Below are positions 26,007 through 50,169 of a stretch of 64,000 bases of DNA, in pieces. Each line of letters opens with the position of its first letter. The stretch's first letter is position 1. The notes beneath the pieces were generated by a model. It saw only the letters and a program-made list of their open reading frames with translations. It was not told the DNA's origin and made no database searches. Position numbers and translations under genes: made by a program. The stretch lies in NCBI GenBank assembly GCA_016278505.1, contig JADQBQ010000014.1:1-64000 (forward strand). Reading direction: 5' to 3'. Origin of the DNA: Clostridiales bacterium (lineage in GTDB: Bacteria; Bacillota; Desulfotomaculia; Desulfotomaculales; VENG01).

Positions 26007-26714
26007 ATGAAAACCGAACAAGACAATACCCTTTTTCTTATCAAACGCCTGCAGCAGGGCGATGAGATGGCCCGGGAAACACTTATCACCAATTATAAGG
26101 GTTATATTATTAAATTAGCAAAAAGCTACAGCCAGGAAAAATGTAATGTTCTCAGCACTGACGCTTATAGCATAGCCTTAATTGCTTTCAACGAAGCGGC
26201 AGATAAATATAACCCCGATAAAGGAACCCATTTCCCCTCCTTTGCCAGTCAGGTAATTAAAAGACGATTGATAGACATGGTGAGATGTAACGTTAAATAT
26301 AAGCCGGAAATAAATAGCCAGGACATTCCTGACAGCCCGTCCGAGGATACTAACAATTCTGAGCTAAGAGAAGACTTGGCCGAGGATATTGAGTGGTTTG
26401 AAAAGGCATTACAGAAATTCAATATCTCCCTGGAGGATCTGGTGCAGGAAACACCGAAACACAAAGACACACGCTGTAAAGCGATAGCTATGGCCAAGCA
26501 CGTGGTAAATGACCCGGTGCTGCTGGCTCGTTTCAACGAACGCAGGTCCTTACCTTTTAAAAGCCTATTATTAAAGTTTCGCTGTAACCCTAAAACCATT
26601 CAACGTCACCGAAAATATATAATAGCAGTATGTATTGCTCTAAAAGGCTCCAGCATTTATTTGAAAGACTACATCCTCGGTGTGGTGAAAGGGTGCGATG
26701 ACCATGGCTCATAA
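26007..26714 (+). CDS. sigI: RNA polymerase sigma factor SigI
   Basis: The 235-residue sigma-70-like factor has region 2 (ETLITNYKGYIIKLAKSY, then ALIAFNEAADKYNPDKGTHF and FASQVIKRRLIDMVR) and the SigI C-terminal domain with DPVLLARFNERRSLPFKSLL and CNPKTIQRHRKYIIAVCIAL. SigI responds to heat in Bacillus and to extracellular polysaccharides in cellulolytic clostridia. The start ATG has AGGAAGTGAGG upstream. The end overlaps rsgI by 17 bp, the usual arrangement in which the partner anti-sigma factor is made together with it. Confidence 0.92.
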   Translation: MKTEQDNTLFLIKRLQQGDEMARETLITNYKGYIIKLAKSYSQEKCNVLSTDAYSIALIAFNEAADKYNPDKGTHFPSFASQVIKRRLIDMVRCNVKYKPEINSQDIPDSPSEDTNNSELREDLAEDIEWFEKALQKFNISLEDLVQETPKHKDTRCKAIAMAKHVVNDPVLLARFNERRSLPFKSLLLKFRCNPKTIQRHRKYIIAVCIALKGSSIYLKDYILGVVKGCDDHGS

Positions 26715-28035
26715 GGGTACGGTTTTTAAAGTTAAACCACAAAGCCTGATATTGATGACAGGAGATTTTGAATTTAAAGAAATTAAAAAACGGGCATCGG
26801 TAAAAATCGGCCAGGAAGTACTCTTCGACGACCACGACATAATAAGCCCGCATCAACATAACAGGAGATGGTTAGCGTTAGCCGCTTCGCTGTTAATCTT
26901 TGTACTTTTTTCCAGTGCATTACTGCAAGAAATTCTGGTACCGGACGTTTATGCCTATGTGGGGATGGATATAAACCCCAGTTTAGAACTGGCCCTGGAT
27001 AAAAAACTGGAGGTTATACAGGCTGAGGCAAGAAACGAAGATGCCCAAAAAGTTTTACAGGGCCTTTCCCTGCAAGGCCTTAACCTGAAGGCGGCGGTAG
27101 ATACCATCTTGGAATCATGCTCCAACCAGGGATATATAAACAATTCTACTTCCCATATCGTGATCAGTACAACAATAAATGCCACCAGTGTGGAGAATAA
27201 TGTAAAACCGGCCAATTTGGAAGCACAGGTACTATCATACACTAAGGGACAACTGGAGAAGAAACAGGCAGAAGTTAATGTTTACGTGGTAAAAGTAAAT
27301 GAAGAGGAAAGAGAAGAAGCCTTAAATAAAGGCGTGTCCGCAGGTAAATATCACCTCTGGAATAAAAGCAGGGAAAACGGCGTTGAACTTGACCTGGAAA
27401 AAATTAATGCGCAGAGCATGGGCAGTATTGTACAAAATAATGACCGGGTGCAGGACGTTCTCACAAAAAATGCCACTGTAAAATGGAAAAAGGCCGGCCA
27501 TAAACAAAAGGGTATTAATGATACTCCCCAAACACCTCCGGGCATTGAAAAGAAAGGTGATTCCAAAGCTTCACCCGGTACAGATGTAAAAGGGCAAGCA
27601 AAGAGCCACGGCAAAGCTATGCGGGTAAACCCCAACGCAAATAATTATGCAAAACAAGGCCAAAATAACGGCAGTACCGGTAAAAATGTAAAATCAGGAA
27701 AAAACATGCCTGCATTCAAAAACAATAAAAACGGCTGGGGCACAGAGTCACCCGGCCGTTTGAAAGACCCCGCGGGAAAATCGCCCCAAGGTTCTAACAA
27801 GGACAAAAAGAACGGTAACAGTTCAGCAAACAATAATAAGAAATCAAAAGACAATGCTAAAAACCAGGGCAAACCACAGAGAGGTCAAACATATCCCTCC
27901 GACAAAACAAAAGGCAGCCCTCAAAATAACTTTAAGGATTCGCCCAAAGATACCAGTAAAGATGTCAAAAATAATGATGGTAAAACTATCCAAGGTGTTA
28001 AACATAACTGGTTTCGCTTGGGCCTATACAAATAG
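26698..28035 (+). CDS. rsgI: Anti-sigma-I factor RsgI with disordered extracellular tail
   Basis: The 445-residue membrane protein has an N-terminal RsgI cytoplasmic domain (about 5-50: KGTVFKVKPQSLILMTGDFE) that should hold SigI, a single helix (58-79), then the RsgI extracellular domain with YAYVGMDINPSLELALDKK; its Asn93-Pro94 fits the self-cleavage site described for RsgI proteins. From about residue 265 the tail is low complexity, rich in Lys, Asn, Gly, Pro and Ser, with no carbohydrate-binding module. The start could be 26698 or the ATG six bases later. It is translationally coupled to sigI. Confidence 0.88.
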   Translation: MTMAHKGTVFKVKPQSLILMTGDFEFKEIKKRASVKIGQEVLFDDHDIISPHQHNRRWLALAASLLIFVLFSSALLQEILVPDVYAYVGMDINPSLELALDKKLEVIQAEARNEDAQKVLQGLSLQGLNLKAAVDTILESCSNQGYINNSTSHIVISTTINATSVENNVKPANLEAQVLSYTKGQLEKKQAEVNVYVVKVNEEEREEALNKGVSAGKYHLWNKSRENGVELDLEKINAQSMGSIVQNNDRVQDVLTKNATVKWKKAGHKQKGINDTPQTPPGIEKKGDSKASPGTDVKGQAKSHGKAMRVNPNANNYAKQGQNNGSTGKNVKSGKNMPAFKNNKNGWGTESPGRLKDPAGKSPQGSNKDKKNGNSSANNNKKSKDNAKNQGKPQRGQTYPSDKTKGSPQNNFKDSPKDTSKDVKNNDGKTIQGVKHNWFRLGLYK

Positions 28036-30561: not shown

Positions 30562-31140
30562 ATGTCTTACCAGTTTGGAAATTCCGTGCAAAAAAAGTAC
30601 TGTTACCAGGATTACCTGCAATTACCGGCAGACAAAAAGTGTGAAATATTAGAAGGTACTGTTTACGATATGACACCATCCCCTTCAACGCAGCACCAAA
30701 GGATTTTACGAAGGTTATTGCTTCGAATGGGAAGTCACTTGGATGGCATTGCTTGCGAGGTTTTTAACGCACCCTATGATGTACTTTTAACGGAACAAAA
30801 TGAAGATGCAGAAGATATAAAGACCGTAGTACAGCCCGACATACTGGTGGTATGCGACCGGTCAAAACTTGCTGATAATTATTGCCTTGGAGCCCCCGAT
30901 TTTATTGTGGAAATAGTATCGCCCTCCTCACCTTCTATGGACTACGTAAAAAAGTTATACCTTTACGAAAAGCATAAAGTAAAAGAATACTGGATTGCAA
31001 ACTACGTCCGTAAAGAAATAATGGTTTTTAGATTGGAAGACAACGAAGATTACGGCGAGCCCGAGATATACTCAGGTGGTAATGTTACATCTAGCGTTCT
31101 TACCGGACTGAAAATATCTTTAGATAATTTGTTTATTTAA
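30562..31140 (+). CDS. Uma2-family (DUF820) nuclease-like protein
   Basis: The 192-residue protein has the Uma2 fold of PD-(D/E)XK type: a start YQDYLQLPADKKCEILEGTV, the catalytic-type Asp in VVQPDILVVCDRSKL, then PDFIVEIVSPSSPSMDYVKK and a lysine in YEKHKVKEYWIANYV. Uma2 proteins are very numerous in cyanobacteria and some Firmicutes and are annotated as putative endonucleases without a proven role. It has AAAGGAGGG upstream. A second Uma2 domain is found at 49.4 kb. Repeat elements fill the DNA after it. Confidence 0.85.
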   Translation: MSYQFGNSVQKKYCYQDYLQLPADKKCEILEGTVYDMTPSPSTQHQRILRRLLLRMGSHLDGIACEVFNAPYDVLLTEQNEDAEDIKTVVQPDILVVCDRSKLADNYCLGAPDFIVEIVSPSSPSMDYVKKLYLYEKHKVKEYWIANYVRKEIMVFRLEDNEDYGEPEIYSGGNVTSSVLTGLKISLDNLFI

Positions 31141-47060: not shown

Positions 47061-48935
47061 ATGACCGGAAATAATAGTTGCATATTAACAGGTAAGTATA
47101 GATCACTATTCCTCCCCCTGGCTCTCTTCCTCCTAATCCAACTAACCACCCTCACCAGCCTCTTTGACCGCGTGGAAATGGCCATGTATGACTCCTGGTT
47201 TCGGCTGCAGGGTGCGCAGGACCCGGGTGAGCAAGTTGTGGTTATCGGCATGGACGAGGCCTCTGTCCAGGAGCTGGGCCCGCCGGCATGGCCCCGATCC
47301 ACCCATGCCCGGCTGTTGGAAAAGCTGAAAGAGGCCCGGGTTGTGGGCTTCGACATGACCTTTGACGTGCCGTCGGAGCCGGCAGAGGACCAGACCCTGG
47401 GGAAAGCCGTGGCAGAGCACGGGCGGGTGGTGCTGGCCAGCCAGTTTTCCTTTGAAGAGGATGAATCAGGGGCGAAGGTACAGGTCTTTCAGCCGCCGCG
47501 ACCGGAAATAATGGCCGGGGCGGCGGGTTTGGGTTTCGTTAACACTCCCACTGACCCGGACGGGGTAGTACGCCACATGACCACCGTGGATACAAATACT
47601 TTCCAGATTCCTTTTCCGTCCCTGGGGCTGGCCGTGGCGCTGGCCGCACTGGACCTTAATCCCACCCAATTAGAATTGAAACCCGGTGCACTGAGCGCGG
47701 GTGACAAAGTAATTCCCTTAAATAAGAACAATCAATCTCTACCGGTTTTTTGGGGACCCCAGGGCACCTTTAAAACATACAGCTACGCCGCTGTATTAAA
47801 CGGGGAAGTGGCACCTGCCGCTTTTAAGGACAAAATAGTAATGATCGGGCCCACGGCCTCCATCGAAAAAGATAGTTACCCCACTCCTTACACCACTTCC
47901 AACCTGGTATTGAGCGGAGCATTACCTACACCCGGAGTGGAAATTCATGCCTCGGTGGTACAAAGTTTTCTGGACGGGCACTGGTATAAAAAAGTTCACC
48001 CGGCAGCTAATATAGCTTTCCTTTTGCTGTCAGGCCTTTTAACGGCCACAGTAATCTCCCGCCGCGGCCCGTGGCTGGGACTGGTGGGTGCTCTGGCCGT
48101 GGCCTTGCTTACCGCCGCAACGGCTTTCGGTCTGTGGGCTAAAGCACAGTTATGGTTAAATGTGGCCGCTCCCCTGGCTCTTGTTTTCCTGACCTATGCC
48201 TCCATAACCGCGGCGGAGTTTGTGCAGTCCGAGATAGGACGGCGCAAAATAAGAAACATGTTTGGCCGCTACGTATCCGACTCGGTAGTGGAAGAACTCA
48301 TGCGAGACCCGGATAATATAGCCCTGGGGGGACAGCGCCGCACGCTGACCATTATGTTCTGTGACATCCGGGGCTTCACAGCTTACAGCGAAAATAAGCC
48401 GCCGGAGGAAGTAGTCAGCCGTTTAAATGAATATTTAACCGCTATGACTGAAATAATCCTCCGTCACGGCGGGACGCTGGACAAATACCTGGGGGACGGG
48501 CTGATGGCTTTCTTTGGCGCTCCCGTGTATTTTTACGACCACATTCAACGGGCAGTTCAAACCGCCGTGGAAATGCAGGAAGCAATAGATAAACTAAACC
48601 TTGATTGGGCAGCCAAGGACGAACCGCCGCTAAAAGCCGGTGTGGGAATTAACTCCGGCAGCGCTCTGGTGGGTAACGTGGGCAGCCCCGACAGGATGGA
48701 TTATACCTTGATCGGTGAAGATGTTAACCTGGCCTCACGCGTAGAAGGTCTAACCAAGACTTACGGTTCCTATATTGTGATCAGCGAGAGGACAATCAAA
48801 ATGGCAGAAGAAGAAAAAATCAAACTGCCCTGGAAACTTAAATACCTGGGGCACGCAGAGGTAAAAGGATTTACAAACACAATCGGAGTTTATACTGTGG
48901 CTGAAAAATTAAACGCCGAAGAAGGGAATAATTGA
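47061..48935 (+). CDS. CHASE2-domain adenylate/guanylate cyclase
   Basis: The 624-residue protein has one N-terminal helix (SLFLPLALFLLIQLTTL), an extracellular CHASE2 sensor (about 35-310; DEASVQELGPPAWPRSTHAR, GFDMTFDVPS, AFKDKIVMIGPTA), three more helices (about 315-390) and a class III cyclase domain (about 430-600) with both metal aspartates in FCDIRGFTAYSE and LGDGLMAFFGAP, and the base/ribose region DYTLIGEDVNLASRVEGL. It should make a cyclic nucleotide in response to an external signal. No cyclic-nucleotide receptor is seen nearby. DUF3307 follows three bases later. Confidence 0.92.
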   Translation: MTGNNSCILTGKYRSLFLPLALFLLIQLTTLTSLFDRVEMAMYDSWFRLQGAQDPGEQVVVIGMDEASVQELGPPAWPRSTHARLLEKLKEARVVGFDMTFDVPSEPAEDQTLGKAVAEHGRVVLASQFSFEEDESGAKVQVFQPPRPEIMAGAAGLGFVNTPTDPDGVVRHMTTVDTNTFQIPFPSLGLAVALAALDLNPTQLELKPGALSAGDKVIPLNKNNQSLPVFWGPQGTFKTYSYAAVLNGEVAPAAFKDKIVMIGPTASIEKDSYPTPYTTSNLVLSGALPTPGVEIHASVVQSFLDGHWYKKVHPAANIAFLLLSGLLTATVISRRGPWLGLVGALAVALLTAATAFGLWAKAQLWLNVAAPLALVFLTYASITAAEFVQSEIGRRKIRNMFGRYVSDSVVEELMRDPDNIALGGQRRTLTIMFCDIRGFTAYSENKPPEEVVSRLNEYLTAMTEIILRHGGTLDKYLGDGLMAFFGAPVYFYDHIQRAVQTAVEMQEAIDKLNLDWAAKDEPPLKAGVGINSGSALVGNVGSPDRMDYTLIGEDVNLASRVEGLTKTYGSYIVISERTIKMAEEEKIKLPWKLKYLGHAEVKGFTNTIGVYTVAEKLNAEEGNN

Positions 48936-49350: not shown

Positions 49351-49409
49351 TCGTACGATTTATCTTAATATTGTACAATTTAGTTATGCATAGTATAATT
49401 GTCGTACGA
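49351..49409 (+). promoter_or_regulatory. Three-palindrome operator array
   Basis: TCGTACGA (49351-49358), TTGTACAA (49371-49378) and TCGTACGA (49402-49409) share the core GTAC. Their spacings, 20 and 31 bp, are about two and three helical turns, so all lie on one face. The second covers the -35 and the third the likely start point. Confidence 0.7.
49371..49399 (+). promoter_or_regulatory. Promoter of the Phd-Uma2 fusion gene
   Basis: TTGTAC at -35 (49371-49376), a 17-bp spacer and TATAAT at -10 (49394-49399). Transcription would start near 49406, inside the third palindrome. Confidence 0.75.
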
Positions 49410-49419
49410 GGTGATGGAT

Positions 49420-50169
49420 GTGAGCGGTACCATAAAAGTTATTACAGCTACAGATCTTAAGACAAATTTAGGCAAGTACATTGACTACGTGATTGAAGAC
49501 CACGAGGTTATCGTTACCAAAAACGGCAAAAAAGCAGTACGACTTACGCCTTATATTACAGAAATCGAACGATATTTTACGGTTAAGGAAAATGCGAAAG
49601 ATTATCTGTACGGCGGCAAAAAGGTCTCATATGAAGAGTTTATGGAGATATACGAGAAAAGCGAGCTAAGAATGGAGTATATCAACGGCGAAATATTTCT
49701 TTTGACTTCCCCCGACACCTTCCACCAGGGTATTTCCGGGAACCTGTACACCCATCTGAGAGCATACTTGCAAGACAAAAAATGCAAGGTTTTTTATGCG
49801 CCTTTTGATGTTCATTTTTATAAACAAGAGTTTGAAACACCTGATGTAATGCAGCCCGATTTACTCATCGCATGTGATTTAGAAGCTAATGTTAATGAAA
49901 AAGGGCGCTATATGGGTACACCCTCACTATGCATTGAAATTATATCCAAAAACACCCGCTCAAAGGATATGGTAGATAAGCTCAATACGTATATGTTGTC
50001 TGGTGTGAGGGAATTCTGGATCGTCGACCCTGGTAAGCGTTCAGTTCTGGTATATGGCTTTAAAGATTTTGAAATTGATGAATACACTGCCTATAAGATT
50101 GGAGATACATTAAACTCTTACTTTTTTGAAGGTTTAGAGATAGCGGCAGATGGAATATTTGAAGTTTAG
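49420..50169 (+). CDS. Phd/YefM antitoxin-like domain fused to a Uma2 nuclease-like domain
   Basis: The start is GTG 49420 with GAGGTG six bases upstream; a TTG at 49399 is inside the promoter. Residues 1-45 (IKVITATDLKTNLGKYIDYV, then EVIVTKNGKKAVRLTPY) match the DNA-binding half of Phd/YefM antitoxins. Residues about 70-249 are a Uma2 domain (MEYINGEIFLLTSPDTFHQG, VMQPDLLIACDLEANV, PSLCIEIISKNTRSKDMVDK, REFWIVDPGKRSVLVYGF) with the PD-(D/E)XK residues. Phd normally represses its own operon, and the promoter carries matching palindromes, so the fusion probably regulates itself. No separate toxin gene is present. Confidence 0.8.
   Translation: MSGTIKVITATDLKTNLGKYIDYVIEDHEVIVTKNGKKAVRLTPYITEIERYFTVKENAKDYLYGGKKVSYEEFMEIYEKSELRMEYINGEIFLLTSPDTFHQGISGNLYTHLRAYLQDKKCKVFYAPFDVHFYKQEFETPDVMQPDLLIACDLEANVNEKGRYMGTPSLCIEIISKNTRSKDMVDKLNTYMLSGVREFWIVDPGKRSVLVYGFKDFEIDEYTAYKIGDTLNSYFFEGLEIAADGIFEV

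Follow-up and report, generated by a model that had tools for sequence, protein, structure and literature searches.

The gene at positions 49420-50169 of the window, by which we mean the whole 64,000 nucleotide stretch of DNA that was analysed, encodes a Phd/YefM DNA-binding domain and then a Uma2 PD-(D/E)XK domain in a single chain, and it is likely to be a one-gene self-repressing nuclease in which the Phd domain, sitting on a phased TCGNNCGA array, limits expression of its own Uma2. The N-terminal Phd/YefM-type domain would dimerise, and the dimer would bind the helically phased TCGNNCGA array at the -35, at the start point and immediately before its own promoter; occupancy of this operator would block RNA polymerase and the fused Uma2 PD-(D/E)XK nuclease would thereby be kept at a low set level. 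The presence of several sites on one helical face suggests that repression is cooperative. Comparison of sequences supports autorepression via a clade-specific operator well, and we further infer dimerisation, repression and catalytic activity. Uma2 nucleases occur in large numbers, have expanded in some genomes and have no established role; the fusion gives them a testable regulatory logic. The two related clades described below, each with a clean operator that differs from the other's, are a natural data set for asking which Phd residues read which DNA.

The promoter and its palindromes

An earlier note on this DNA had claimed three palindromes spaced by 20 and 31 bp, one over the -35 and one over the start point, and this arrangement was recovered. 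The distal palindrome TCGTACGA (49351-49358) is a putative operator that precedes the proximal one by 51 bp, the middle palindrome TTGTACAA (49371-49378) covers the -35 hexamer, and the proximal palindrome, again TCGTACGA (49402-49409), is a putative operator that lies over the predicted start point and extends into the Shine-Dalgarno sequence. The -10 hexamer TATAAT (49394-49399, + strand) was identified from the sequence and by a promoter scan and is TATAAT-like in most aligned relatives. Within TTGTACAA the -35 can be read as TTGTAC at 49371 with a 17-nt spacer, the scan instead giving TGTACA at 49372 with a 16-nt spacer, and transcription would start at about 49405-49407.

In most close relatives 21 bp separate the middle site from the proximal one and place it within the spacer between the -35 and the -10, so the 31 bp of the window is atypical; here the slot at 21 bp reads TTATGCAT and the palindrome is 10 bp further upstream, one helical turn away from the middle site of most relatives.

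The perfect TCGTACGA occurs at seven sites in the 3.92 Mb of its own genome, of which two are those of this promoter, 51 bp apart, and these form the only close pair genome-wide. A wider regulon of perfect TCGTACGA was considered and rejected, the other five sites being single and unpaired, with several inside ORFs. By itself TTGTACAA is common in the genome (74 sites against 71 for a control), and from its density we estimate that about 0.001 chance occurrences would be expected between the two TCGTACGA sites. As a separate observation TCGTACGA is scarce in this genome, with 7 sites against 44 for a reversed control pattern whose dinucleotide make-up differs.

The fusion gene and its domains

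The fusion of Phd/YefM and Uma2 reported in the earlier note is real, both Pfam domains scoring above cut-off in one ORF on the + strand. Translation probably starts at the GTG at 49420 rather than at the in-frame ATG at 49414, because the Shine-Dalgarno sequence GAGGTGA (49408-49414, + strand), which is kept in relatives, would overlap the ATG and because relatives begin at the position aligned to 49420; residues are nevertheless numbered here from the ATG.

The Phd/YefM DNA-binding domain (49435-49554, + strand; residues 8-47) belongs to its family both by profile and by fold. It matches PF02604 (PhdYeFM_antitox) of Pfam at 38.2 bits against a cut-off of 29.8 and the prevent-host-death family TIGR01552 of NCBIfam at 34.4 against 20.8, the Phd/YefM profile match stopping at position 42 of 74 and leaving the C-terminal part of the profile unmatched. 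Foldseek matches to Phd, Phd-operator and YefM structures have high probability (1.00 for 3hs2 and 4zm0, with E-values of 0.015-0.03, and 0.99-1.00 for 2a6q), and the weak E-values are expected because the domain is small. Nine stand-alone Phd/YefM genes are also found in the same genome.

The Uma2 PD-(D/E)XK nuclease domain (49633-50145, + strand; residues 74-244) is similarly assigned by profile, fold and acidic and lysine residues, with 96 bits to PF05685 (Uma2) of Pfam against a cut-off of 27, strong Foldseek matches to the Uma2 structures 9y1l, 6okh, 3ot2 and 1wdj, and a match over residues 69-250 to the PADLOC defence candidate PDC-S03 (6.1e-53), for which an anti-phage function is putative. 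D149, E175, S178, D185 and K189 are 100% conserved in both clades of the fusion, and position 144 is D in one and N in the other. D149, E175 and K189 are the proposed catalytic residues, by reference to the family; neither clade varies at any of the three, so the nuclease is probably active.

The two domains are joined by a linker (49555-49617, + strand; residues 48-68) that is strongly conserved within clade A, the clade of the window's fusion; E59 and Y64 are conserved in clade B too, but most of the linker differs between clades. In an AlphaFold2 model built from 40 relatives (mean pLDDT 86, pTM 0.69) the linker is the least confident part outside the N-terminus, with a pLDDT of about 61-68.

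Conservation of the operator

More than 100 relatives were compared overall, including 80 full-length fusion loci from genome contigs, mostly of Bacillota. Upstream of these 80 fusions there are 57 occurrences of TCGTACGA against 0.28 in dinucleotide shuffles, a comparison in which the loci share ancestry, so that the 57 are not independent events, and the shuffles control for composition only; no TCGTACGA was found in the downstream and far-upstream control DNA of the same fusions. It is the top palindromic 8-mer of clade A, being present at 41 of 79 loci where 0.33 would be expected.

The constrained core is TCGNNCGA (TCG-N2-CGA), found upstream of 58/79 clade A loci; the 21 without a match fall mostly in the more distant half (L049-L080), which has degenerate sites. 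Previously unseen clade A genes that were newly fetched carry TCGNNCGA in 8/8 cases. The motif had earlier been described as a GTAC palindrome, and whilst the palindromes hold, GTAC as such does not, the core being TCGNNCGA with a middle position that varies. TGTACA was also tried as the motif and is not enriched (3 against 3.3 expected).

A proximal anchor of the CGNNCGRGGTG type is present in 47/81 sequences, with the consensus TCGTACGAGGTGAT, and relatives have a TCGTACGA-like site that precedes the proximal site by about 50 bp. In a subset of 46 loci, chosen so that any two promoters share less than 62% identity, the distances between clade A sites cluster at 20-23, 29-32, 42-45 and 50-53 bp; they are phased at 10.5 bp (R 0.73, n = 37, mean phase -1.4 degrees), a value reached by none of 20,000 uniform draws. 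The claim that the palindromes lie on one helical face holds approximately in the window, where 20 bp is 1.90 turns and 31 bp is 2.95, and is significant for clade A.

A second clade with a different operator

The second fusion clade, clade B, is ~40% identical to clade A and has palindromes of its own. TAGCTA occurs upstream of 25/25 clade B fusions against 0/79 of clade A, and held-out clade B promoters that were newly fetched contain it in 20/20 cases, 45/45 in total; conversely TCGNNCGA is found in 0/25 of the clade B upstream regions. The downstream controls of the newly fetched genes contain neither TCGNNCGA nor TAGCTA. The top palindromic 8-mer of clade B is TTAGCTAA (14/25, 0.35 expected), and its spacings of 9, 17, 22 and 30 bp follow no single helical rule. 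Within the Phd domain residues A12/S, K16/Q and L19/F differ between clade A and clade B. The genome analysed here itself holds a second Phd-Uma2 fusion, at C25:54456-55208 (L082 / L119), which is of clade B and has TAGCTA palindromes.

Among 40 Uma2 genes matched over the nuclease domain alone, a set defined by where the match begins and not by a scan for an N-terminal Phd domain, TCGNNCGA is found upstream of none and TAGCTA upstream of two; three Uma2 matches in the genome of the window start at query residue 61-69. As the type of palindrome differs by clade and is near-absent at these nuclease-only Uma2 genes the operator follows the Phd domain, which in turn strongly supports autorepression. 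The antitoxin-type autoregulation by the Phd domain that had been proposed is supported by the clade-specific palindromes, and a search for homologous fusions lacking palindromes, which would have spoken against it, showed TCGNNCGA kept at 58 of the 79 clade A loci and clade B with its own TAGCTA throughout.

The window also contains a second Uma2 gene (30562-31140, + strand), whose nuclease domain is 32% identical and which has neither TCGNNCGA nor TAGCTA upstream. Three fusions of a GC-rich genome (L144, L145 and L146 of G010), inspected by eye, likewise lack both upstream; CGTACG is found in two of these three regions and is possibly a third type of operator.

Comparison with known systems

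The Phd protein of phage P1 has a C-terminal tail that neutralises Doc, which is the product of a separate toxin gene. The fusion shares the DNA-binding fold of this Phd-Doc system, the predicted model matching Phd with operator DNA (4zm0), but here it is a Uma2 domain that comes after the Phd domain. A close parallel in regulation is with YefM-YoeB and Axe-Txe, the operons of which are repressed by YefM and Axe themselves via two palindromes with TGTACA cores 12 bp apart (PMC7730913). There too GTAC-centred palindromes lie over the promoter of the gene concerned and an N-terminal Phd/YefM-type domain is the repressor, as predicted here from the comparison of upstream DNA. The fusion differs in having a TCGNNCGA core and usually three sites 20-31 bp apart, TGTACA being unenriched, and in having its effector fused in the same chain rather than encoded in a two-gene operon. 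It also departs from type II toxin-antitoxin systems, with their separate adjacent genes, in being one ORF with no recurrent partner, paralogues aside, among 133 immediate neighbours.

With the Uma2 / DUF820 / COG4636 nucleases (9y1l, 6okh, 3ot2, 1wdj) the fusion shares both fold and family, but most genes found match the nuclease domain alone and have no recurrent upstream palindrome. The similarity to PADLOC PDC-S03 is confined to the Uma2 domain, as the profile leaves out the Phd domain, and the function of PDC-S03 is a proposed one. A search of the literature, in a collection that lacks most subscription journals, gave no paper describing a Phd-Uma2 fusion.

Distribution and possible roles

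The fusion is patchily distributed, with matches at E <= 1e-40 in 57/398 sampled genomes of the phylum and none in the only genome found from the same family. The plasmid records (72,556) and phage records (50,697) that were searched contain no full-length relative, and a scan of viral contigs gave no relative. The 133 immediate neighbours at 72 loci match 154 Pfam families, and nothing but fusion paralogues recurs more than three times; paralogues aside no recurrent partner gene was found amongst them. Eight of the 133 match PDC-S03, these being paralogues; no other listed defence family recurs in more than two and no defence island was seen among these immediate neighbours. At one locus (L001:2053-2896) a tandem fusion paralogue lies directly upstream of the main fusion, and its gene and proximal promoter have 89% nucleotide identity to those of L058 from another organism, which suggests horizontal transfer between the two.

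The likeliest role would be that of an anti-phage or stress nuclease. The specific proposal of a single-gene anti-phage nuclease, autorepressed to a standing low level until infection raises that level or unleashes cleavage, is compatible with self-repression and we regard it as a tentative possibility: the PDC-S03 match, the patchy distribution and the one apparent horizontal transfer speak for it, but PDC-S03 is a mere candidate in the PADLOC library, no paper under that name was found in the literature searched, and the neighbours that match it are paralogues. A single-chain toxin-antitoxin, in which the Phd domain and linker neutralise a fused Uma2 toxin in cis until proteolysis or release from DNA frees the toxic nuclease, seems to us somewhat doubtful. 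Phd is an antitoxin DNA-binding domain, Uma2 has been called a likely solo toxin, rarely found with antitoxins (Makarova et al. 2009, PMC2701414), and the linker is conserved as described; against this, the two clades have little of the linker in common, and the absence of full-length relatives from the plasmid and phage records gives no sign there of addiction to mobile DNA. We consider it unlikely that operator-bound Phd also holds Uma2 inactive, so that release from DNA would both derepress the gene and switch on cleavage, with operator specificity having split by clade into two or more orthogonal codes, among them TCGNNCGA and TAGCTA.

The remaining readings concern the palindromes themselves. 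A nuclease guided by its Phd domain to TCGTACGA-like DNA for cutting would agree with the rarity of this sequence in the genome, but the control pattern differs in dinucleotide make-up and so gives no firm sign of avoidance. The promoter of the gene has two perfect sites, and most relatives keep such sites, so the enzyme would cut its own gene; this we think very improbable. The control-level frequency of TTGTACAA on its own would suit palindromes that are there by chance, as sites of another regulator or as a generic promoter feature, an explanation to which we give hardly any credence, given how enriched, phased and clade-specific they are and how rarely they occur at nuclease-only Uma2 genes. 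Self-repression by the Phd domain remains the preferred reading, with the 21 clade A loci that lack TCGNNCGA, the three fusions of G010, the irregular clade B spacings and the low model confidence of the linker weighing against it.

Elsewhere in the window two adjoining genes (26007-28035, + strand) resemble in sequence those for a sigma factor of the SigI type and an anti-sigma factor of the RsgI type, and a gene for a protein with CHASE2 and adenylate/guanylate cyclase domains (47061-48935, + strand) lies directly upstream of a DUF3307 gene.
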